Assembly: GCA_015065165.1 (NCBI GenBank)
Contig: SVQU01000020.1
Coordinates: forward strand, 1 to 34,869
Direction of reading: 5' to 3'
DNA: 34,869 nucleotides
DNA from: Oscillospiraceae bacterium
GTDB taxonomy: Bacteria > Bacillota > Clostridia > Oscillospirales > CAG-382
Translations under genes and position numbers: made by a program
The notes under the pieces: generated by a model
Told to the model about the DNA's origin: nothing
The model's database searches: none
What the model saw: the letters and a program-made list of their open reading frames with translations, nothing else
In this document: positions 10,015 to 34,778 of the stretch, piece by piece
Layout of the letters: the number at the start of each line of letters is the position of its first letter
How positions within the stretch are numbered: the first letter of the stretch is position 1

Positions 10015-12956
10015 TATTTATTACCCTCCCATACTTTGATAATTTCGCCTTCTGCGTTAAGCTTTACGTATCCGTTTACGGGAATTACAACATCTGTATT
10101 TTCAACAGTATATGCCTTTTCACCGTAGTTAACATAGAAAGCAATGCCGTTTTCGTAAACAATCTTTGCAACTTTACCGTCATTGGTTAAAATGTCGTGC
10201 TTAAGCATAGCGGAGTTTTGTACGTCTCCGATTGCCTCGTTAACATCATTATAAGCCGAAACGATATCGTCAACCCAAATGTTATAACGAACGGAATAGT
10301 AAAGTTCAATTGCGCTGTAGTTATATTTCTTTAATTCGGAGATGTTATTCATCGCAACTACGAAATAGGGGTTTGCACCGCTTTCGATAGTTTTCAACAA
10401 ATAATAATCATAGTCTCCGGCAAGGTTGAGCGCCTGACCGGTATATTCTTTATAACCGTGAAGAACCATGCTCATAAAGGGAATGGTTGCATAGGAAATA
10501 AGAAGTCTGGAGTCATCAAGAGGCACGTCAATAATATCGGTTGCATAAGGCAACGCATATTTATTACCTGCAGAAATAAGAACCTTTTTGTTGTTTTCTT
10601 TAATTGTAGAGAGCAACTGAATTACAAGTTCCTTAGAGTCTTCTCTGGTCAAAGGTCTGTCTTCGTTAAAGTCGGAGGACAAATACTGACCGAGAGAACC
10701 AACAGAAATAGAACCTACGTTATACTTAGAATAGTCTTCATATGCGGAAGCGTAAAGTTCTCTCATAAAGTTGGGAGAAATAACCGCTTCGCCGGGAGTG
10801 AGAGTTACAAAGCCCTGCCATACGGGGTTATAACCTTTTCTTCTTGCAGAACGATCATCAATAGTTCTTGCAACGTCATCTTCGGAATCAAATCCGTCGA
10901 AGGCGTTGTCGCTGTAAGCGAAAGAAAGTTCAATATCAGGGAACAAAGTAACGTTATTCTCGTTAGCGTAAGAGATGAGGTTTTTAAATCCTTCTTCCCC
11001 ACCGAGAACGTCCTCAACTTCGATTGAAGTAGCAACATCACCCATCAAGCCGCCGTTAAACCAGCCGTTCATTTTAACCTTAAGGTTATAAATGTCGTGT
11101 TTGGTTTTTAATTCATCAAGAATATCAATAGTATCCTGGAAGGTTGTAAGAGCAACCATAGATTCAACAGGAACACCGAGAACGGTCTTCTGCGATTCAA
11201 TAGCACCAAGTGTTTCAAGATAGAGAGGAATATCCTTTTCTGCGTCATCAACCTTGGTGAGTACGCCGGACTTAACGAGGTAGCTTCTATATGCCGCAGC
11301 CATATCCGAATAGGACTTATCAGCATCCAAGGAATCGGTAGCTACGTCGCCATCTTCGGTACCGTCAAGAATGAACAATCTCAACTTGAAGTTACCGGTG
11401 TATTTACGCTTGGATTCAACCGTCCACATAGATGTTGTACCAACAGAAAGACCGCCGGTAAGCATATACGAGTCCTTAGGACGAGGGTTGAAGGAAGTAT
11501 AAACAGAAGCAAAGTTATGAATAGAACCACCGTAGCTAACGTTAATCTTAGCCATGGAGTCGCCTTCCTCGATAACTGCAAGATATGCAATTTCAAGAGG
11601 AACAGAAACTTCTTTTTCTTCTTTTATCATTTCACCATTTTCGTCATAAGTATAGTTGCCGTTTTCATCAAGAACGGGAACCATATCCATAATGGTGTGG
11701 TCGTTTTCAACACGCTGATACAAGCCGAATACAGGAAGTCTGGCAACCTCGCTATTCTGACCGGAAATAGAGTGGTAGGTATAGTCCTGACCGTAAAGGC
11801 TGCTGGAATTCTCTATAACACCTGTAAGGTCGGAGAAATCGATAAGCGAGCCCGAACCATCGGGAGAGAACATATAACCGGTGTTGTTAACGTCCCCTGC
11901 ACCGCCGTAAGGAAGAACCTTTACATCAGACAAGGTGTAAATCGAAGAGTCGAAACGAATGTTACCCGCGTTACATCTGATGGTGATTTCGTCGCCCTCT
12001 ACACGATATTCAAGAGCAAGCTTGAACAAAGGCGGAGCTTCATCATCGGAAACGTATTCGGTTTCTGCATGGTCTGCATCCAATGCATCATAGTCATAAT
12101 CGGTATAGCTCTTAACAATACGTTCCAGCTTAACAAGTTCTTGTTGAGTGGTTGTAGAGTCGCAGACATAAACCGCCATGTTCTTTGTGCAGGGATACAT
12201 CTTCTGCATTTTTTCCTTTTCATCCGCAGATACAAAAGCATCGTTAGGATCCATCAATGCATACTGTGCGCTGAATTCGGTATAGTCTCTTCTTCTGGTA
12301 GAATTTTCCTGAATCTGAGTAAGAAGATTTTCGAACTTATCTTTTCTGATAAGCATAGGAACAAGGAACGTAACCTGTTCACGACCGATAGTGTATTCAA
12401 CACGAACACCGCCGCGAATATTCTTAACCGTAATCTGTCTGTTTGCGGCAGCATCGGCAAAAGAATTCAAATCGTATTCCTTATCATTTTTGGAATAATC
12501 AATGATAATCTGAGAAAGTAAATTCTCTTTATCTACGGGAGTTGTACCGTTCTGAGCACCTTTAGCCTGTGCAGCGCCTGCGTTATAAGGGTTGGTGCAA
12601 TAGAATGCGGTATATTCGGGAACATCGCCCGAAGCAATGATATCTTCTTTTGTTACGGAATCATCTTTCAAAACCAAGAAGATCATTTCACCGGTAACGA
12701 TATCGCCATAGAAGGCATAACCGTCTACTACGGTAAGCAATTGCATAGCATCAACTTCACCGTTACCAAGTATACGTTGTTTTACGTTAGAGAAAGCCGT
12801 TGTGGTGTATGCAGGATACTTTTTATTCTTCCAAGTATCTTCCCATGTTTCTTCTTCATCTTCAGCAGCAAAAGCCGAAATAGTAGCGAAGGAAGTCGTT
12901 AGCATAAACACACATAGAACGAGTGCAATCAAACGCATTAATTTATTTATTTTCAT
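10014..12956 (-). CDS. secreted DUF5696-family protein
   Basis: A 980-residue secreted protein. Residues 1-30 form a Sec signal peptide with probable cleavage after AFA. An N-terminal beta-rich region (about 50-350) and a middle region with GYMFSPDGSGSLIDF (360-374) resemble carbohydrate-active enzyme accessory folds. From about 575 to 890 the alternation of strands and helices looks like a barrel (LYLETLGAIE, NLKVKMNGWFNGG, VTLFPDIELSFAYSD). I assign DUF5696 from memory of such proteins beside sugar ABC permeases; its activity is not established. There is no lipobox or obvious C-terminal anchor, so it may be released or bound to its neighbours. AAGGAG lies 10 nt before the ATG. It is fifth in the operon. 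A glycoside hydrolase-like role is inference. Confidence 0.8.
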   Translation of the reverse strand: MKINKLMRLIALVLCVFMLTTSFATISAFAAEDEEETWEDTWKNKKYPAYTTTAFSNVKQRILGNGEVDAMQLLTVVDGYAFYGDIVTGEMIFLVLKDDSVTKEDIIASGDVPEYTAFYCTNPYNAGAAQAKGAQNGTTPVDKENLLSQIIIDYSKNDKEYDLNSFADAAANRQITVKNIRGGVRVEYTIGREQVTFLVPMLIRKDKFENLLTQIQENSTRRRDYTEFSAQYALMDPNDAFVSADEKEKMQKMYPCTKNMAVYVCDSTTTQQELVKLERIVKSYTDYDYDALDADHAETEYVSDDEAPPLFKLALEYRVEGDEITIRCNAGNIRFDSSIYTLSDVKVLPYGGAGDVNNTGYMFSPDGSGSLIDFSDLTGVIENSSSLYGQDYTYHSISGQNSEVARLPVFGLYQRVENDHTIMDMVPVLDENGNYTYDENGEMIKEEKEVSVPLEIAYLAVIEEGDSMAKINVSYGGSIHNFASVYTSFNPRPKDSYMLTGGLSVGTTSMWTVESKRKYTGNFKLRLFILDGTEDGDVATDSLDADKSYSDMAAAYRSYLVKSGVLTKVDDAEKDIPLYLETLGAIESQKTVLGVPVESMVALTTFQDTIDILDELKTKHDIYNLKVKMNGWFNGGLMGDVATSIEVEDVLGGEEGFKNLISYANENNVTLFPDIELSFAYSDNAFDGFDSEDDVARTIDDRSARRKGYNPVWQGFVTLTPGEAVISPNFMRELYASAYEDYSKYNVGSISVGSLGQYLSSDFNEDRPLTREDSKELVIQLLSTIKENNKKVLISAGNKYALPYATDIIDVPLDDSRLLISYATIPFMSMVLHGYKEYTGQALNLAGDYDYYLLKTIESGANPYFVVAMNNISELKKYNYSAIELYYSVRYNIWVDDIVSAYNDVNEAIGDVQNSAMLKHDILTNDGKVAKIVYENGIAFYVNYGEKAYTVENTDVVIPVNGYVKLNAEGEIIKVWEGNK

Positions 12957-17050: not shown

Positions 17051-20000
17051 TTACCTCCTTCCATCCCAATCGGGATACTTATTCTTAACTACCTCAACCA
17101 TTTCCTTGATAGAATCGGTTGTGGGCAAACCAAACTCGCTTCTCTTACGTGCAAGCTCGGCATTAATATCAGGAATATAAGACTGAAGTTCAGAAACAGG
17201 TTCCGCATTGCTGTTTACAACGTCAAGGAACGCGAAAGACGTATAACGGCCGATAATGTAGCTACCGGGGAATTCGGGAGTACAAGATACCGAATTAAAC
17301 TGCGAGAACAAGTTGTTATATTCTTCAGTAGACCATGCCATATTGGCAAGAGCGTTCATATTAGATGTAGGCTGTTTTGCGGAAGGACCGAGAAGAGCAA
17401 CCATTTCGTTACCGTAAATGCTCTGTACTTCGGCATTGAGATACCACTGCATAAATGCCCAAGAGCCAAGCGCTACGTCTTCCTTAGAGCTTACGCCGTT
17501 CATCATCATAATAGTGGAAATACCGCCAACGGAATTGTTGTGTATTTCGCGAGTTTCATCATCAATGGTGCCGGGAAGAGGAGTAAATTCCCAAAGACCG
17601 TTGATTTCAGGTGCGAAGATAATAAGTGTGTTGTAAGAGGTGAAGTCCTGTACAGCGATAGGCATTTCACCGGAACGGAAACGGTTTGCAAAGTCATATG
17701 TAATCGGGAAATCATACATAGTGAAGAATTGGCAAACTTCCTTGAACTTCGCAAGAGAAACGTCAGAATCGAGGTTAATAGTCATACCATCGGTTTTAGG
17801 AATGGTATTTCCCTCTTCGTCAATGTAGGTCAAGCCTGCGTCGCTAATCTTCTGATCTACTTCAGCGAGCTGTTCCGAGCTGATGTTATCATAATCATCA
17901 CCCTCGTAATAGTAGCGTCTGAACAAATCGAGATAATAGTCATAGTCGCCCATATCGTAAAGAGGTTCATCTTCTTGATACATCAAGAACATAGAACCAC
18001 CGGTACCCTGAGGGAATCCGATATCAAGGGAGTTAGACTGAAGGCTGTACATAATATCATAGAAGTCATCCCAAGTGTTGGGAACTTCGATACCGAGTTC
18101 AACAAAGATATCTTTGCGGTAGAACATCATCGCGAAGGACATCGTCATAGGCAATGCATAGGTTTCGCCGTAAAGTGTAACAGGAATCAAAGCTTCATCG
18201 GCAAACCAAGACTTTACTTCGTCAAAATCTTTAATGGTTCCGCTTTCAATAAGTCGGTTAAACGCGGGATATTTATATTCGCCGGATTCGTTCTTAGAAT
18301 TCCAAACGGAGTTTTCGAGATCGGTAAAGTCATAACCGATCTTTGTGTTTCCGCCCTTGTGGTTCAAAGAAAGAATAGCAGAACGAATTGCATAGTTTAC
18401 AGGGTCGCCCTGAGCGCCGCCGAGATAGATATCGGGACCGGTACCTGCAAGTGTAGCAGGAAGAAGTGTGCCGGCTGCAACAAGCTGGATGTCAACTGCA
18501 ATACCTTCATAGTTAGGAGTGAAGTTATCATCAACAAGAGTTCTCAAAATCTGCGCCTGGTCTCTGGAAGAAGCGGTCCAAACAACAACGCTTACGTCAT
18601 TTGCGGAATCGCCGTCCTCAGAGGTGGTACCAAGGCTGTTATAATCACTAAAGAAGGACATATAGAACTTCTTGATTTCATACCAAAGGTTTTCGAAGAA
18701 ACCGGGTTCGGGATTGGGGCTTTCGGATTCAACAGCCTGAACACTGATATAGTCGATGCTGAGAGGCTGGTTCTGTGTATTGGAAAGCCAGGTACCGAGA
18801 GATGCGGTATAGTCCTTAAGTGTCTTCATCTGCGAAGCAATGGTAGAAGGATACATACTCATACGTTCGCAGGTAAGAGAAACTCTGTCAAGAGTAGAGG
18901 AATGCTCACCCTTTTCGCCAACGAGTCTTGTGAGTTCTTCAGAAACGGCAGTCAAACGTTCGGACTCTTTTCTGAGACCCTTCAAAACGTCGGGAATGAG
19001 TTTATCGAAACCATAGTCGCGGTATTCGTCGGCATCGGGACCGGTTATCATAAGTATCTTACGATAATATCCGTTAAGGTTGGAAAGCGAGGTTTCAACG
19101 GAACGAAGAACTTCGGCCATATCACCAAGAACAACTTCGAGTCTAATGGTGTTAGGCTTACCTGCTTCAAGGTAGAACTTAAAGTTGGTAGTGCCATCGT
19201 TCAACGGTTCAGCAAGCCATTCGGTAGAATAGGAGAATCTAAGATTGCCCGCTTCTGCAAATGGCAGTTCGCCGTTAATGTATACTTTTCTGGAAACATA
19301 AATACCGGAATAGAAGTTCTGCTGACTTCTGGGTATAATATAATAGAAGCCACTTTCGGGAACTTCGATCTGCCATTCAATCCACTGACCAACATACTGC
19401 CACTTATCACCGCCGATTTGATTCAATCGAATAAGAGACGGATCCTGAGGTTCAGAGTAGCTGGAAGATCTGTCATTAAGAGCGTAGATTGTATTACCGG
19501 AGGTTAAAACAGAATATTCACCCTGAATCTTAAAGCTTTCGCTACCGGTATAATCGTTAGCATCGGAATGAGAGTTAAGATAATCCTCATATGTGCCAAC
19601 AGAAGGCGCTTTTACAAGCTTAACGCTCTTGATAGCGAGAGGCTCTCTGATCGCCTGTAAGCTGAGAGTGTGTTCGCCCTTCGAGAAATAGAAGGACAAA
19701 GGTTCGCTATAGAAACCGGTGGAGTCATTGATATAGTCGCCGATCCACTGAGCAACAAGTGTCTTTTCGGGCTTTAATTCGTTGCCGTTAAGGTCGTTAG
19801 CAAAAAGACGTTCGCTGTCGGCAGACATATTCTCTTGGTTCAAAACGAAATCCAAGAACTGAGAGCCGTTGGACAGATAAGTATCTTTAGTGCCATCCTC
19901 GTTACGGATAGAATAGCCGTTATCATCAAGATAAGTATAAGCGTCCGCCCAAATCTTCTCGAACTTGACAGAACGAGCTTCTTTGTAAGGAACCTTACCA

Positions 20001-20509
20001 TCAACGAGAACGTAACGTTCGGCAGCGGAAGATTTCGCCACCATATTGTCGCCGAAATCGAAGTTACCGGTATAGTACTCGATGAGAATGTTATATCGAG
20101 CAGCTTCCTCGAAATTCAATTTCCACGAAACGATACTGTTATCGCCGCAGATAAGAACAGGGCCGTTAGAATCCCCGAGGCTATCAACCGTAGTAATAGC
20201 GCCCAAAGACCAAACAACATCTTTCTGTTCTTCGGTTAATTCGCCGGTAGGTTTAATATCAACATAATCGAAAATATCAATTTCGATATCTGCTCCAAAG
20301 CCTACGTTGCCGTTATTTTCGAGATACTCCTGATACGTGGTAGCCGTAAGAACGTTTTCCACATCATCGAGAGAGGTACGGTACATAGACTCAGAACCGT
20401 TGAAGTAATCACCTACAGCAGATGCAGTTATACCGCCGAAGCTCGTAAACAACAACGAGAACAGCAAGGCATAAATGCACAAACTTTTGATTCTTCTGTT
20501 TCCAGTCAT
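17051..20509 (-). CDS. giant extracellular substrate-binding protein with CBM-like N-terminal domains
   Basis: A 1152-residue secreted protein, more than twice the usual substrate-binding protein length. Residues 1-31 are a signal peptide (cleavage near TASA); no lipobox cysteine is present. Two beta-rich regions (about 60-300 and 320-460) resemble galactose-binding or CBM35-like folds: each has a WKLNFEEAARYNILIEYY or WQIEVPESGFYYIIP type strand and a late ASxKLVK or RLEVV type strand. A helical region (about 495-580) links them to a family 1 solute-binding domain (about 637-1130; VVVWTASSRDQAQILRTLV, GPDIYLGG, YALPMTMSFAMMFYRKD, NTWDDFYDIM). It is the first gene of the seven-gene operon. 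AGGAGG precedes the ATG by about 8 nt. The likely ligand is a complex or polymeric glycan, by inference. Confidence 0.9.
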   Translation of the reverse strand: MTGNRRIKSLCIYALLFSLLFTSFGGITASAVGDYFNGSESMYRTSLDDVENVLTATTYQEYLENNGNVGFGADIEIDIFDYVDIKPTGELTEEQKDVVWSLGAITTVDSLGDSNGPVLICGDNSIVSWKLNFEEAARYNILIEYYTGNFDFGDNMVAKSSAAERYVLVDGKVPYKEARSVKFEKIWADAYTYLDDNGYSIRNEDGTKDTYLSNGSQFLDFVLNQENMSADSERLFANDLNGNELKPEKTLVAQWIGDYINDSTGFYSEPLSFYFSKGEHTLSLQAIREPLAIKSVKLVKAPSVGTYEDYLNSHSDANDYTGSESFKIQGEYSVLTSGNTIYALNDRSSSYSEPQDPSLIRLNQIGGDKWQYVGQWIEWQIEVPESGFYYIIPRSQQNFYSGIYVSRKVYINGELPFAEAGNLRFSYSTEWLAEPLNDGTTNFKFYLEAGKPNTIRLEVVLGDMAEVLRSVETSLSNLNGYYRKILMITGPDADEYRDYGFDKLIPDVLKGLRKESERLTAVSEELTRLVGEKGEHSSTLDRVSLTCERMSMYPSTIASQMKTLKDYTASLGTWLSNTQNQPLSIDYISVQAVESESPNPEPGFFENLWYEIKKFYMSFFSDYNSLGTTSEDGDSANDVSVVVWTASSRDQAQILRTLVDDNFTPNYEGIAVDIQLVAAGTLLPATLAGTGPDIYLGGAQGDPVNYAIRSAILSLNHKGGNTKIGYDFTDLENSVWNSKNESGEYKYPAFNRLIESGTIKDFDEVKSWFADEALIPVTLYGETYALPMTMSFAMMFYRKDIFVELGIEVPNTWDDFYDIMYSLQSNSLDIGFPQGTGGSMFLMYQEDEPLYDMGDYDYYLDLFRRYYYEGDDYDNISSEQLAEVDQKISDAGLTYIDEEGNTIPKTDGMTINLDSDVSLAKFKEVCQFFTMYDFPITYDFANRFRSGEMPIAVQDFTSYNTLIIFAPEINGLWEFTPLPGTIDDETREIHNNSVGGISTIMMMNGVSSKEDVALGSWAFMQWYLNAEVQSIYGNEMVALLGPSAKQPTSNMNALANMAWSTEEYNNLFSQFNSVSCTPEFPGSYIIGRYTSFAFLDVVNSNAEPVSELQSYIPDINAELARKRSEFGLPTTDSIKEMVEVVKNKYPDWDGRR

Positions 20510-27832: not shown

Positions 27833-27861
27833 AGTATACAATATTATTTGCAATTTGTCTA
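27833..27861 (-). promoter_or_regulatory. promoter for the parvulin-type lipoprotein
   Basis: On the minus strand TAGACA (27861-27856) and TATACT (27838-27833) each match the sigma-A consensus at five of six positions, with a 17-bp spacer. The -35 overlaps the mfd stop codon, so this gene can be transcribed independently of the pth-mfd message while still receiving read-through. Confidence 0.6.
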
Positions 27862-30800
27862 CTGATTTTTTATTATTTGGGAATATCTTTCTATAATTTT
27901 TTCGGATATATCTAATATTCTGTCTCCGTTTCGCAGCTTATACGAAATGTGAGGTTTCCCTCCCAGGGAAATCATAACAGCACCCTTAAACGGTTCTTCC
28001 GAAGCGATAACAGCACATTTTTCTATATCTATAGCGGGATTATAGAAGCTTATAACACGTTCTCTTTGTTCAATTGAAGTAAAGCCTAATTCCAAAGCAG
28101 TGTTACGCAATTTTGATATTCTGATTAAATTGCTTGTAGATTCGGGAATATCGCCAAATCGGTCGTTCAATTCATCAATCAAATCGTCGCTATCGTTTTC
28201 ATCACAAACAGCGGCAATTTTTTTGTATACGTCGATTCTCAAGCGAGATGAAGTAATATAGTCCTCGGGTATGAAAGCATCTACAATCAGGTCTATAGTG
28301 CAGTTAACCTCTGCCTTAGGCGCAATTCCCTTTTCGGCGTTAATGGCATCCTCGAGAATTTTTATATACAAATCATAGCCAATCGCCTCTAAATGACCGC
28401 TTTGTTCAGCACCCAGCAAGCTACCGGCACCGCGAATTTCCAAATCTCGCATAGCAATTTTAAAGCCCGAGCCGAATTCGGTAAATTCGCGTATTGCCTG
28501 AAGTCGCTTTTCGGCAATTTCGTTTATAATACTTCCCGCTTTATAGGTTAAATACGCATAAGCCTTGCGTGTAGACCTGCCGACTCTGCCGCGTATTTGA
28601 TGAAGCTGCGCAAGTCCCATTCTGTCCGCCTGTTCTATAATAAGCGTATTTGCGTTGGGAACGTTAATACCTGATTCTATAATCGTGGTACACACCAAAA
28701 CATCAATCTTGCCGTCCACCATATCAGACCAAACGTCTGAAAGCTCTTCTTTATCCATTTTTCCGTGGGCAACCGCAACGTTACTGTCGGGAAAAGCGTT
28801 TCGTATAGAGGCGGCTTTTGAATAAATAGAATCGACAAAATTATGCAAATAAAACACTTGACCGCCGCGCCTTAACTCTCGTCGCATCGCCTCTATCAAT
28901 ATTTCATCATCCTGTTCTAAAACAAAGGTTTGAACAGGAACACGGTCGATAGGTGCTTCTTCCAGAACAGACATATCGCGAATACCGCTTAATGCCATAT
29001 TTAAGGTACGCGGTATGGGGGTTGCGCTAAGCGTTAAAACGTCAACACCTTTTGACAGTTCTTTAAGCTTTTCTTTGTGAGTTACACCAAAGCGTTGTTC
29101 CTCATCTACAACAAGCAACCCCAAATGTTTAAATTCGATATCCTTTTGTAACAGCCTGTGTGTACCGACAACAATATCCACCTTGCCTTTTTTCAGCCCA
29201 TCCAAAACTTCCGCTTGTTCTTTAGGGGTAACAAAGCGAGAAAGCATGGCAATTTTCACAGGATATCCTCTGAAACGCGCCATAATCGTCTGGTAATGCT
29301 GAAAAGCCAAGATCGTTGTAGGAACAAGCACTGCTGCTTGTTTACCGGCAAAGACGCATTTGAACACCGCGCGCAAGGAAACCTCAGTCTTACCAAACCC
29401 AACGTCTCCGCAAAGCAATCTGTCCATTGGATAGGGGTTTTCCATATCCTTTTTAATTTCATTGGCGGCACGAATTTGACCGTCGGTTTCTACATATTCA
29501 AATTCGCTTTCAAATTCATCCTGAAGTTCATCGTCAGGCGGAAAAGAATACCCTATTAAGCTTCTGCGTTCGGCATATAGCTTAATTAATTCCTTTGCAA
29601 TATTGGAGGCGGATGCCTTCGCTCTTGCCTTGGCGCGCTTCCATTCCGCACCGCCCATTTTCGAAAGTTTGGTATCCTCCGATCCGATATACTTGCTAAC
29701 CATATCGAGCTGATCGCAAGGTACGTAAAGCTTTCCGCCGTCGGCGTATACCATCTTTATAAAATCCCTTGAAACCCCTTGTGTTTCAAGATTTTGAATA
29801 CCGTCATAACGTCCGATACCGTGATTCACATGGACAACCAAATCGCCTATAGATAAATCGGCATAGGACGCGATTTTTTCGCCCTTTGAAGTCTTTGCAC
29901 CGCGCCGTCTGTGTCGCATTTCTTCACGAGGGCGCAATGACATATAGTCGGTCAAAAGAACAAAACCGCATTTAGGAAGCTCGAAGCCTTGTTTAAAAAC
30001 TTCACTGCCGTAAGAAACAACTGCCACACGGCCTTCATACAACGTTCCGCTGTAAGGAAAAGCGGGTATATCTTCACCAACAAGCATATCTATCATCGCC
30101 GATGCAGAGTGCTCACTCGAACACATCAGCAATATCTTCCGCGAAGCAGAAATATAATCTTCTATATCCTCCAAGAAAACGTCTTTTTTCTCGGTCATCG
30201 GCATAGTTGACTTTGTGAGGAAATTATATAACGATCCTGCGCCGATTTTATGACCAGAGCTTTGGAATACATCTACGGCAATAGCGTCCTTTTTGAAATA
30301 TGAAAATAAATCTTCTTCATCGCAAAATGCTTGACAATTCTTTGATTTGCATATTCCAACCGAAACCATTGATTCAATAACACCGTTATTAACCGAAGTA
30401 AAGTATTTTGCACGGTCATATATACGTTTTTCTTCAAAAAGAAAACACATTTTATCATCGATATAATCCAATAAAGTTTTCTTTTCTTTATAAATAAGGG
30501 AAAAATATTTATCTGCAAATAAATTTCTATCGCCGCGTTCTAATGCGGCAAGTTCGGAAAATAGTGTCTGACGATTCTTTTCTGTGCCTTTAAAAGAAGA
30601 TATCATTCCATTTATTTCACGGGATATGGCTTTTTGCGCCGCCTCATCTGCCATTAATTCGTTGCAAGGAATAACTTTTATTCGTTCCAGATTCTCTATG
30701 CGACGTTGAGACACGGTGTCAAAAAGACCGATTAAATCAACTTCATCGCCAAAAAAGTCTATTCTGGCAGGATAGGAATAATTAGGTGAAAAAATATCTA

Positions 30801-31335
30801 CTATTCCGCCGCGTACAGAAAACTGACCAACGCCTTCTACAATATCCGTACGGGTATATCCCATAATCTCGAGCTTTTTGCATATATCCGTTTGGGAGAA
30901 AATACCGCCTCTATGAACAGAAAAGCAATTATTTTCAAATACATCTCGAGGCATAACGTACTGCATTAACGCATCGGGAACAGTTACGATAACCTCATAA
31001 TCCCCGTCTATAACCGAGCTTTGAACCGAAAGACGTTCGTGCTCCCATTCTCTTGAATAAGCAAGTATGTTTTCAAAAACAAAATCGCGGGATGGATAAT
31101 AAATAACCTTATTGAAAAACATTTTTAAAGTTTCCGCAAGAGAAATCGCTTCCTTTTCTTCGGAAACAACGATAACACCCTTTTTATTAAGTTCTTTAAG
31201 TACAGAGGCGATAAAAAAAGGGCGCACAGAATCGCACATACCGGTAACAACAGCGGGTATGTGTGATTCCGAAAGGTTATTTAATAACGCTTTATATTCG
31301 TTATCGTTTAAAAATTGTTCAAGAATATTTTTCAT
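27859..31335 (-). CDS. mfd: transcription-repair coupling factor
   Basis: Mfd binds stalled RNA polymerase, releases it from DNA with its ATP-driven translocase, and recruits UvrA. The 1158-residue length is normal. An N-terminal UvrB-like region (about 1-340) is followed by the RNA polymerase-interaction domain (about 495-550; GDLVVHVNHGIGRYDGI), the helicase core with Walker A GDVGFGKT (643-650), DEEQ (744-747) and SATPIPRTL (770-778), and the C-terminal TRCF regulatory domain (about 1010-1110). The ATG overlaps the pth stop by one base (TAATG), so translation is coupled. Nothing unusual was seen in the motifs. Confidence 0.98.
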   Translation of the reverse strand: MKNILEQFLNDNEYKALLNNLSESHIPAVVTGMCDSVRPFFIASVLKELNKKGVIVVSEEKEAISLAETLKMFFNKVIYYPSRDFVFENILAYSREWEHERLSVQSSVIDGDYEVIVTVPDALMQYVMPRDVFENNCFSVHRGGIFSQTDICKKLEIMGYTRTDIVEGVGQFSVRGGIVDIFSPNYSYPARIDFFGDEVDLIGLFDTVSQRRIENLERIKVIPCNELMADEAAQKAISREINGMISSFKGTEKNRQTLFSELAALERGDRNLFADKYFSLIYKEKKTLLDYIDDKMCFLFEEKRIYDRAKYFTSVNNGVIESMVSVGICKSKNCQAFCDEEDLFSYFKKDAIAVDVFQSSGHKIGAGSLYNFLTKSTMPMTEKKDVFLEDIEDYISASRKILLMCSSEHSASAMIDMLVGEDIPAFPYSGTLYEGRVAVVSYGSEVFKQGFELPKCGFVLLTDYMSLRPREEMRHRRRGAKTSKGEKIASYADLSIGDLVVHVNHGIGRYDGIQNLETQGVSRDFIKMVYADGGKLYVPCDQLDMVSKYIGSEDTKLSKMGGAEWKRAKARAKASASNIAKELIKLYAERRSLIGYSFPPDDELQDEFESEFEYVETDGQIRAANEIKKDMENPYPMDRLLCGDVGFGKTEVSLRAVFKCVFAGKQAAVLVPTTILAFQHYQTIMARFRGYPVKIAMLSRFVTPKEQAEVLDGLKKGKVDIVVGTHRLLQKDIEFKHLGLLVVDEEQRFGVTHKEKLKELSKGVDVLTLSATPIPRTLNMALSGIRDMSVLEEAPIDRVPVQTFVLEQDDEILIEAMRRELRRGGQVFYLHNFVDSIYSKAASIRNAFPDSNVAVAHGKMDKEELSDVWSDMVDGKIDVLVCTTIIESGINVPNANTLIIEQADRMGLAQLHQIRGRVGRSTRKAYAYLTYKAGSIINEIAEKRLQAIREFTEFGSGFKIAMRDLEIRGAGSLLGAEQSGHLEAIGYDLYIKILEDAINAEKGIAPKAEVNCTIDLIVDAFIPEDYITSSRLRIDVYKKIAAVCDENDSDDLIDELNDRFGDIPESTSNLIRISKLRNTALELGFTSIEQRERVISFYNPAIDIEKCAVIASEEPFKGAVMISLGGKPHISYKLRNGDRILDISEKIIERYSQIIKNQ

Positions 31336-31964
31336 TACTTATCACAACTGTTTTCCATTCCTAATGGGTTGAAAATTCTGATACTTTCTTCAAGTCCGTA
31401 GTAAAACATATAGGTAAACGCATCGCGTATAGACGGAAATTTACTGCTTATTTTCTTATATTCATCTTCGGGAATAATTTCAAGAACGTATCGTGAAAGC
31501 TCGCATTCCTCGGGCTTTAAGCCTACTCCGACTTTAATTCTGATAAAATCGTCTTTACCCAGATATTCTACTATGGAACTTAATCCTTTATGCGCAGACA
31601 TATCTCCGCCTTTTACAATTTCAAAACAACCAGAGGGCAATAAGAGATCATCGTGGATAACAACGAGCTGTTTTGATTTCATACGATAATAATCCAACGC
31701 GTCCTCCACAGCCATTCCCGAGTTGCTTATATACATTTGCGGTTTTAAATAAAGAACAACGTTATCCTCAAGAACGCATTTATCCGTTAATGAAGAATGT
31801 TTTGCTTTCCTACAGCCAAAATTCATCATGCTGTCATTGTTCAAATAATCAATGACCTTAAAACCGATATTACTACGAGTATTTTCGTATTTAGGGCCGG
31901 GATTGCCCAAACCAACAATTATATAATCGGGAGACATACCGCGATTTATTCCCAATCGATCCAT
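31335..31964 (-). CDS. pth: peptidyl-tRNA hydrolase family protein with altered active site
   Basis: Pth (SpoVC in Bacillus) releases peptides from peptidyl-tRNA. The 209-residue product has the family fold: VGLGNPGPKYENTR (17-30), VVIHDDLLLPSG (101-112) and KVGVGL (144-149). Three residues known to be essential in E. coli Pth are replaced: catalytic His20 is Ser31 (TRSN), Asn68 is Ser80 (YISNSG instead of YMNLSG), and Asn114 is Lys126 (AHKG instead of GHNG). Asn10 and Asp93 are kept as Asn21 and Asp105. The frame is intact and coupled to mfd. The start at 31964 has GAGG 8 nt upstream; an ATG at 31937 would give a more typical N-terminus but has no good ribosome binding site. Activity is doubtful. 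Confidence 0.88.
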   Translation of the reverse strand: MDRLGINRGMSPDYIIVGLGNPGPKYENTRSNIGFKVIDYLNNDSMMNFGCRKAKHSSLTDKCVLEDNVVLYLKPQMYISNSGMAVEDALDYYRMKSKQLVVIHDDLLLPSGCFEIVKGGDMSAHKGLSSIVEYLGKDDFIRIKVGVGLKPEECELSRYVLEIIPEDEYKKISSKFPSIRDAFTYMFYYGLEESIRIFNPLGMENSCDK

Positions 31965-32000
31965 CTTAGAAACCTCAATTTCAAAATAATCGTATTTATT

Positions 32001-32029
32001 AGTTTAAACCCAAACTGTTTTTTTGTCAA
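32001..32029 (-). promoter_or_regulatory. promoter for pth-mfd
   Basis: On the minus strand a perfect TTGACA (32029-32024) precedes TAAACT (32006-32001; four of six matches to TATAAT) by 17 bp. Transcription would begin about 30 nt before the pth start codon. It is divergent from the ppdK promoter about 55 bp away. Confidence 0.6.
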
Positions 32030-32144: not shown

Positions 32145-34778
32145 ATGTCTAATAAGTACGTTTATCTCTTTTCTGAAGGCAATGGCAAGATGAGAGAACT
32201 TCTCGGCGGCAAGGGTGCTAACTTGGCCGAGATGACCAACCTCGGTCTCCCTGTTCCTCAGGGTTTTACTATAACCACAGAAGCTTGTACTCAGTATTAC
32301 GATGACGGCGAAGTTATCAATGCTGAAATTTCCGCACAAGTTGTTGAATATATTGCCAAGATGGAAGCTATCACCGGCAAGAAGTTCGGTGATAAAGAAA
32401 ATCCCCTTTTGGTTTCTGTTCGTTCCGGTGCAAGAGCATCTATGCCCGGTATGATGGATACCATTCTTAACCTCGGTCTTAACGAGGAGGTTGTAGAAGT
32501 TCTCGCAGCAAAATCCGGCAACCCCCGTTGGGCTTGGGACTGCTACAGAAGATTCATTCAGATGTTCTCCGACGTTGTTATGGAAGTCGGTAAGAAATAT
32601 TTTGAAGAATTAATCGACAAAATGAAAGAGCAGAAGGGCGTTACTCAGGACGTTGACCTTACTGCAGAAGATCTTAAAGAGCTTGCTAATCAGTTCAAGG
32701 CTGAATACAAGGCCAAAATCGGCGAGGACTTCCCCACCGACCCCAAGGTACAGTTAATGGCGGCTATCAAGGCTGTTTTCCGTTCTTGGAACAACGAAAG
32801 AGCAAACGTTTACCGCCGTCAGAACGATATTCCCTATTCTTGGGGTACTGCAGTTAACGTTCAGGAAATGGTATTCGGTAATATGGGTAACACTTCCGGT
32901 ACCGGCGTTGCGTTCACCCGCGACCCTGCCACCGGCGAAAAGAAGCTTATGGGCGAATTCCTTATGAACGCACAGGGCGAAGACGTTGTTGCAGGTGTTC
33001 GTACACCTCAGAAGATCGACCAGCTTAAGGAAATTATGCCCGAGGTTTATGACAGCTTTATTGCAATTTGCAACAAGCTTGAAGACCACTATAGAGATAT
33101 GCAGGATATGGAGTTTACTATCGAAGATAAGAAGCTCTTTATGCTCCAGACCAGAAACGGTAAGAGAACCGCAAAGGCTGCTCTTAAGATTGCTTGCGAC
33201 CTCGTTGCCGAAAATATGATTTCCAAAAAACAAGCTGTTGCGATGATCGATCCTCGTAACCTTGATACACTTCTCCACCCTCAGTTCGATGCAAAGGCAC
33301 TTAAAGAAGCAACACCCGTTGGTAAAGCACTTGGCGCTTCTCCCGGAGCTGCTTGCGGTAAAGTTGTTTTCACTGCAGACGATGCAAAGGCTTGGGCTGA
33401 CAACGGCGAAAAGGTTATTCTTGTTCGTCTTGAAACCTCTCCCGAAGATATTGAGGGTATGATGGCAGCTCAGGGTATCTTGACCGTTCGCGGCGGTATG
33501 ACCTCCCACGCAGCCGTTGTTGCAAGAGGTATGGGTACCTGTTGTGTTTCCGGTTGCGGCGACATCAAAATGGACGAAGAAAACAAGAAATTTACCCTTG
33601 CAGGTAAAGTATATTCCGAAGGCGATTTCATCTCCCTTGACGGCTCTACCGGTTATATTTACGATGGTGTTATCCCCACTGTTGATGCAGCTATCGCTGG
33701 CGAATTCAAGCAGATTATGGAGTGGGCAGATGAATTCCGCACTATGAAGGTTCGCACCAATGCAGACACCCCCGCAGATGCTAAAAAAGCACGCGAATTG
33801 GGCGCAGAAGGTATCGGACTTTGCCGTACCGAGCATATGTTCTTTGAATCCGACCGTATTGCCGCTTTCAGAGAAATGATTTGCTCCGACACCGTTGAAG
33901 CAAGAGAAGCTGCTTTGGAAAAGATTCTTCCTATTCAGCAAGCTGACTTCGAAGCGCTTTATACCGCCCTCGAAGGACTTCCCGTTACCATCCGTTTCCT
34001 TGATCCCCCCTTGCACGAATTTGTTCCCACCGAAGAAGAAGATATTAAGAAGCTTGCAGAAGCACAGGGCAAGAGCGTTAAGGAAATTAAAGATATTATC
34101 GTTTCCTTGCACGAATTCAACCCCATGATGGGCCATAGAGGCTGCCGTCTCTCGGTTACCTATCCCGAAATTGCAAAGATGCAGACAAGAGCAGTTATCC
34201 GCGCGGCAATTAACGTTCAGAAGGCACATCCCGATTGGACTGTTAAGCCTGAAATTATGATTCCTCTTGTTGGCGACGTTAACGAATTCAAGTTTGTTAA
34301 GAGCATCGTTGTAGAAACCGCAAATGCAGAAATTGCTGCGGCAGGTTCTGATATTAAGTTTGAAGTTGGTACTATGATAGAAATCCCCAGAGCGTGTCTT
34401 ACTGCTGACATTATCGCTCCCGAGGCTGATTTCTTCTGCTTTGGTACTAACGACCTTACCCAGATGACTTACGGCTTCTCCCGTGATGATGCAGGTAAGT
34501 TCCTTGATTGTTACTACAAAACCAAGATTTTCGAAAACGATCCCTTCGTTAAGCTTGACGTAAGCGGCGTTGGTAGACTTATGGAAACCACGATCGCTCT
34601 CGGTAAACCCGCTAACAACAACCTCCACGTAGGTATTTGCGGCGAACACGGCGGCGACCCTGTTTCTATCGAGTTCTGCAACAAGCTTGGTCTTGATTAC
34701 GTTTCTTGCTCTCCCTTTAGAGTTCCTGTTGCGCGTCTTGCTGCTGCACAGGCTGCTATCAAATATGGGGAGGACTAA
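32145..34778 (+). CDS. ppdK: pyruvate, phosphate dikinase
   Basis: PpdK interconverts pyruvate, ATP and phosphate with phosphoenolpyruvate, AMP and pyrophosphate, and serves glycolysis or gluconeogenesis in anaerobes. The 877-residue length is normal. An N-terminal ATP-grasp domain (GGKGANLAEMTNLGLPVPQGFT at about 22-43) is followed by the central swivelling domain with GGMTSHAAVVARG, where His455 is the phosphorylated residue and Thr453 the usual regulatory site. The C-terminal pyruvate-binding barrel has GLCRTEHMF, FGTNDLTQM and GICGEHGGDP with Cys832. GGAGG lies 6 nt before the ATG. Codon choice is visibly more biased toward C- and T-ending codons than in neighbours, as expected of a highly expressed gene. 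Confidence 0.98.
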   Translation: MSNKYVYLFSEGNGKMRELLGGKGANLAEMTNLGLPVPQGFTITTEACTQYYDDGEVINAEISAQVVEYIAKMEAITGKKFGDKENPLLVSVRSGARASMPGMMDTILNLGLNEEVVEVLAAKSGNPRWAWDCYRRFIQMFSDVVMEVGKKYFEELIDKMKEQKGVTQDVDLTAEDLKELANQFKAEYKAKIGEDFPTDPKVQLMAAIKAVFRSWNNERANVYRRQNDIPYSWGTAVNVQEMVFGNMGNTSGTGVAFTRDPATGEKKLMGEFLMNAQGEDVVAGVRTPQKIDQLKEIMPEVYDSFIAICNKLEDHYRDMQDMEFTIEDKKLFMLQTRNGKRTAKAALKIACDLVAENMISKKQAVAMIDPRNLDTLLHPQFDAKALKEATPVGKALGASPGAACGKVVFTADDAKAWADNGEKVILVRLETSPEDIEGMMAAQGILTVRGGMTSHAAVVARGMGTCCVSGCGDIKMDEENKKFTLAGKVYSEGDFISLDGSTGYIYDGVIPTVDAAIAGEFKQIMEWADEFRTMKVRTNADTPADAKKARELGAEGIGLCRTEHMFFESDRIAAFREMICSDTVEAREAALEKILPIQQADFEALYTALEGLPVTIRFLDPPLHEFVPTEEEDIKKLAEAQGKSVKEIKDIIVSLHEFNPMMGHRGCRLSVTYPEIAKMQTRAVIRAAINVQKAHPDWTVKPEIMIPLVGDVNEFKFVKSIVVETANAEIAAAGSDIKFEVGTMIEIPRACLTADIIAPEADFFCFGTNDLTQMTYGFSRDDAGKFLDCYYKTKIFENDPFVKLDVSGVGRLMETTIALGKPANNNLHVGICGEHGGDPVSIEFCNKLGLDYVSCSPFRVPVARLAAAQAAIKYGED

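Follow-up and report, generated by a model that had tools for sequence, protein, structure and literature searches.

A predicted Pth1 pseudoenzyme encoded beside mfd in an Oscillospiraceae genome with a second Pth

The window analysed here is the 34,869-nucleotide stretch at positions 1 to 34,869 of contig SVQU01000020.1 of the Oscillospiraceae bacterium assembly GCA_015065165.1 (the source genome, G000). At 31335..31964 on its minus strand lies a gene for a 209-residue homologue of peptidyl-tRNA hydrolase 1 (Pth1) with a predicted Pth1 fold and a degenerate active site, next to mfd. The reading that we favour, with modest confidence, is that this protein is a Pth1 pseudoenzyme, that a second Pth encoded on another contig relieved it of hydrolysis, and that the altered protein has been kept for a non-catalytic role. 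Three parts of this reading are inferences: the absence of hydrolysis by the window protein, the activity of the second Pth, and selection on the window protein itself. Pth1, a tRNA-recycling enzyme, is required for bacteria to live (PMC3856088; in B. subtilis it is SpoVC, PMC3533761) and has been studied as an antibiotic target (PMC4929431); these and all other papers are cited here from excerpts. A gene annotated pth beside mfd may not be the cell's hydrolase.

Active-site residues of the mfd-linked Pth

The gene reads as a single frame from an ATG. Its product matches the PF01195 profile at 156.8 bits (cut-off 27) and TIGR00447 at 148.7 bits (cut-off 100), and the AlphaFold model, a structure prediction that the original prediction had called for, has an intact Pth fold. 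The fold signatures, Asn21, Asp105 and the open frame had been described as retained, and this description is upheld, for the fold as a prediction. A recoded or frameshifted reading of the gene was considered and rejected, as translation with table 11 gives one open frame.

The window protein was aligned with Pth sequences, and columns were numbered by E. coli Pth (2pth). Ser31 (AGT, 31872..31874; this and the following codons are on the minus strand) stands at the catalytic His20 position, and Ile79-Ser80 (ATA AGC, 31725..31730) at Met67-Asn68, the site of the oxyanion contact. Glu115 and Val117, in the stretch at 31614..31622, replace Lys103 and Lys105 of the patch for the tRNA 5' phosphate, leaving Lys144, at the Arg133 position, as the only positive residue of the K103/K105/R133 patch. 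In the gate loop, Ala124-His125-Lys126 (GCG CAT AAA, 31587..31595) corresponds to G112-H113-N114. The N-terminal loop GLGNPG..YENTR.N and the core remain, and N21, Y26, N32, D105 and H125 preserve N10, Y15, N21, D93 and H113. The excerpted literature names Asn10, His20 and Asp93 as crucial for Pth (PMC4929431); His19, equivalent to E. coli His20, is described as the base, and Asn57 (Asn68) as making the oxyanion contact (PMC11994314). N10 contacts the peptide carbonyl, Y15 and F66 provide stacking, and K103 and K105 hold the tRNA 5' phosphate (PMC11202043). Since residues that do the chemistry are lost, the window protein is likely inactive; as read from the alignment, its cleft has changed less on the side facing the peptide than on the side facing the tRNA.

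The original prediction had listed His20 to Ser31, Asn68 to Ser80 and Asn114 to Lys126 as losses of essential residues. Alignment and codons bear out the first two; Met67, Gly112, Lys103 and Lys105, which were not on that list, are likewise replaced. The third substitution is real, but it does not amount to an essential loss: T. thermophilus Pth has Arg at this position and is active, with that Arg contributing to activity (PMC11994314), and Lys occupies it, together with Gln at H113, in the Pths that are the only ones detected in five draft genomes of the genus (G002, G005, G007, G012 and G020; 68–82% complete). The telling losses are therefore those of His20 and Asn68, and the Asn114-to-Lys change is weak evidence of lost catalysis.

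The replacements are concentrated in the cleft. Thirty-five near-invariant columns were defined in both 42 intact mfd-type rows and 40 other Pths; the 42 include two near-duplicate pairs (G022/P0011 and G009/P0022), and loci L004, L007, L008 and L178, with no frame for the pattern, were left out of the residue table. The window protein retained 30 of these columns and lost five (H20, T65, M67, N68 and G112). Four of the eight literature-named cleft columns were lost, as against one of the 27 others (Fisher p 0.006). Clusters P0002–P0005 and P0035 showed the same concentration significantly; for P0026 it was borderline (p 0.06), and P0036 did not show it (p 0.52). When losses in any of the eight degenerate sequences described below were pooled, the test gave p 0.10.

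Degenerate relatives and the number of losses

The comparison covered 307 listed Pth clusters, namely the best 120 of 768, the best 120 of 7,989 and the best 120 of 1,715 with overlaps merged, which are best-scoring matches and not all Pths; 47 are of the window (mfd-linked) type and 260 are others. His20 was absent from eight of the 47 and from none of the 260, whereas D93 was kept in 46/47 and 260/260. The eight degenerate sequences carry S, S, S, K, R, R, R and Q at the H20 position, and six of them have S or G at N68. Cluster P0131, also of the mfd-linked type, keeps H20 with M67N, N68E and N114K, and may be an intermediate or a separate partial loss; it was counted as intact in the residue-column and cleft-concentration tests. 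No degenerate member occurred among the 80 listed matches of a contig scan, all of which were distant Pths (32–44% in the best segment), and the 80 records listed by a plasmid search were all below 60% identity. A3 stands without the window protein's start Met because its reference is three bases short.

Because eight of the 47 listed mfd-linked clusters lack His20, the degenerate state is no sequencing error. The original prediction had argued that a single read error could not account for the AGT codon, and this held: AGT is at least two changes away from any His codon, and sister clusters share the state. P0002 and P0003, which are 80 and 84% identical to the window protein, read SNIGF, ISNSG or LSNSG, and HKG at these positions. 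An artefact of sequencing, binning or chimerism, for which one might point to the 42-contig draft status of the genome, was rejected as having next to no chance of being correct, given that 16 contigs, the longest of 293,744 bases, carry the window's own cluster (P0001), that P0002 and P0003 agree with it, and that synteny with relatives is intact.

The protein might instead be a hydrolase with a rearranged site in which another residue, for example His125, serves as base. D105 and H125 are kept, H113 is present in all eight degenerate sequences, and Lys at N114 does not preclude function in other Pths. H113, however, was already conserved in the intact Pths of the mfd type (42/42; Gln in 12/40 other Pths) and so is no new gain, and the scatter of S, K, R and Q at H20, with S or G at N68 in six of eight, amounts to no conserved replacement. 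We regard this explanation as very improbable.

A peptidyl-tRNA-binding decoy or chaperone, which would bind without cutting as E. coli H20R does, is also improbable, if slightly less so. In the excerpt of PMC3856088, H20R binds peptidyl-tRNA to more than 95% at a 1:1 ratio; Arg occurs naturally at H20 in three degenerate clusters, and N10, Y15, N21 and a K/R at R133 are kept. The acceptor-stem side speaks against such a role. The K105 column holds K or R in 42/42 intact mfd-type rows and V, V, V, I, I, E, E and D in the eight degenerate sequences, K103 is also lost in the window protein, P0002 and P0003, and the A76/ester pocket of the window protein has lost N68, M67 and G112 as well. K105 is not universal, since K or R is found in 250 of the 260 other listed Pths, and its loss alone is not decisive: nine of the 260 that keep H20 carry V, T, Q or A at this column. 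A new role in tRNA binding, suggested by the original prediction, is thus weakened and not favoured, because an acceptor-stem contact is lost; the better preserved peptide-facing cleft would favour non-catalytic binding of a peptide or protein.

The number of losses depended on the columns used. In a quick tree of all columns, the eight degenerate sequences formed one clade (Shimodaira–Hasegawa-like approximate likelihood ratio test, SH-aLRT, 93); the first tree was made without P0001, the fragment P0043 and the G006 fragment. With 12 active-site columns removed, the sequences fell into two groups, of six (98/99) and two (89/97), and one degenerate group appeared in 2% of 200 bootstrap trees; the approximately unbiased (AU) test did not reject a single degenerate clade (p 0.351). 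Placed singly, P0036, P0035 and P0026 each joined a different set of intact sequences, with support ranging from weak to fair, and the best matches of P0036 were the intact P0011 and P0019 and not P0035. These separate placements and the intact best matches make long-branch attraction likely, and catalysis appears to have been lost one to four times.

A second Pth in the same genome

The original prediction had supposed that the cell might carry a second hydrolase. The source genome (1.67 Mb, 97.2% complete) does contain a second PF01195 gene (C1:50086–50634, 231 bits; locus L001) whose product keeps H20, N68 and D93, has Gln at H113 and is a predicted hydrolase. It is a Pth1 homologue like the window protein, but only 33% identical to it, and its gene directly follows one that we take to be trmL-like. 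Sequences from seven genus members join it in a clade that is separate from the mfd-linked type (SH-aLRT 94). The other rescue genes for which a search had been proposed did not turn up: the source genome has no match to Pth2 (PF01981), which among 60 relatives is present in G018 and G059, and no short ArfB-type PF00472 protein, its two PF00472 matches being 358- and 381-residue frames of release-factor size. In a search of 394 genomes of the order, two PF01195 matches, fragments included, stand in printed rows only for G000, G006, G074, G134, G171 and G184; 22 printed rows have no match, as do two genomes that are not printed.

The gene complement varies further among the relatives. Of the two genomes with PF01981 genes (L085 on G018:C1 and L084 on G059:C4), G018 also has an intact mfd-linked Pth1, and no Pth1 was found in G059. 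In the drafts of the genus relatives G010 (L191) and G011, 85% and 91% complete, neither PF01195 nor PF01981 gave a match, and no mfd of full length turned up; either the genes lie in the missing part or these are a Pth-less species pair. In G010 a frame that is presumably RecQ-like lies upstream of ppdK, at the usual place of pth-mfd. The five genus drafts with Lys at N114 (L076, L079, L074, L071 and L080, respectively) have a second-type Pth only and no full mfd match, and in them pth and mfd may have been lost together once the second Pth was present.

Constraint, retained role and the locus

Selection after the loss was assessed by ranking columns by how conserved they are in 40 other Pths, dividing them into thirds, and simulating mutations on the window DNA, which placed 33% of changes in the conserved third. 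The 28 changes between the window protein and P0003 fell 2, 8 and 18 in the conserved, middle and variable thirds, and none of 1000 simulated runs was as low; for P0002 the changes were 8, 11 and 18, with 46 of 1000 runs as low. In pairs picked by eye from 18 printed ones to share no branch, conserved-third changes made up 6/51 in two degenerate pairs versus 30/245 in seven intact pairs. After the loss the window protein thus seems to have been constrained about as intact Pths are, and since changes fall mainly at columns that are variable in other Pths, selection for more than an open frame seems likely. In 11 columns the window protein and P0002–P0005 share a residue that is rare in intact Pths; four of them (T184, Y185, E193 and R196) lie in the C-terminal helices. 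A new contact site may be sought among these 11 candidate columns.

The main rival is a decaying relic: the second Pth does the hydrolysis, the protein is idle, and nothing but the supply of ribosomes to mfd, which depends on translation of pth, keeps its frame open. The pth stop and the mfd ATG overlap by one base (TAATG), in line with the coupling noted in the original prediction, and the overlap is one base in G022 and G009 too. Divergence also speaks for a relic, the Pth branch being about four times that of its sister (1.13 versus 0.26 for G022; 44–48% identity to G018 and G022), with a near-ordinary Mfd (76% identity to its G018 and G022 counterparts; branch 0.178 versus 0.140 and 0.142). 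So do the drift of the H20 position and the five genus drafts that have the second-type Pth and neither an mfd-linked pth nor a full mfd. Coupling, however, would select for an open frame and not for particular residues, yet the conserved columns were avoided as in intact Pths and 30/35 near-invariant columns were kept. We consider the relic unlikely, though it keeps an appreciable share of our credence.

In the pseudoenzyme reading, a second Pth gene would have relieved the mfd-linked Pth of hydrolysis; the catalytic base, the oxyanion Asn and the 5'-phosphate contact would then have eroded, while the scaffold that faces the peptide in the cleft, with N10, Y15, N21, D93 and H113, would have been preserved. 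This scaffold would bind a protein partner or the end of a peptide, by analogy with the plant Pth relative CRS2, whose function came to depend on protein partners. CRS2 is a Pth-derived splicing factor of chloroplast group II introns with the partners CAF1 and CAF2. In our alignment it keeps the equivalents of His20, Asn68 and Asn114, which the window protein does not, and the likeness is one of fold only. From ordinary bacterial Pth1 (PF01195, TIGR00447) the window protein differs in its replaced H20, N68, M67, G112, N114 and K105 and in not being the only Pth1 of its genome.

Several observations weigh against this reading. The replacements at H20 differ among the degenerate sequences, which is compatible with plain relaxation. 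When P0002 took the place of P0003, the constraint signal was weaker (12/60, p 0.021), and the 11 clade-specific columns give at most a candidate partner site. G022 has the second Pth together with an intact mfd-linked copy, so a second Pth alone is insufficient to cause degeneration; G006 likewise has both; a contig end truncates its mfd-linked copy short of the H20 region, and the residues that this copy covers are kept. The link to a second Pth also rests on one case, because a single degenerate member has a genome. We hold it rather doubtful that the reading extends to a bacterial Pth1 pseudoenzyme family, mfd-linked, freed by a second Pth and peptide- or protein-binding, that would be a counterpart of CRS2 and possibly act with Mfd at stalled transcription-translation complexes. 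No report of a catalytically dead bacterial Pth1 paralogue was found among the matches listed in the open-access full-text literature. A lineage in which a syntenic Pth kept its fold and shed catalysis, with presumed takeover by another Pth1, would provide a natural experiment separating residues for chemistry from those for binding.

The neighbourhood is shared with relatives, so the degenerate gene sits at an inherited site. The downstream frame (27859..31335, minus strand, 1158 residues), with orthologues in relatives, is taken here to be mfd, as named in the original prediction; pth and mfd are adjacent on one contig in 13 of 24 genus genomes, the source genome included. The divergent neighbour at 32145..34778 on the plus strand, presumably the pyruvate phosphate dikinase gene (ppdK), is also found beside the pair in G022, G009, G014 and G019. 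Upstream of pth on the minus strand are a sigma70-like promoter (32001..32029; TTGACA at 32024–32029, a 17-base spacer and TAAACT at 32001–32006), matched to the consensus by eye, and GAGG (31973..31976), read from the sequence as a ribosome-binding-site-like motif ahead of the start. Elsewhere in the window, among other large frames, 10017–12956 encodes a 980-residue protein with DUF5696 (PF18952, 517 bits), a functionally uncharacterised family, and the frame at 17054–20509 contains a solute-binding domain.
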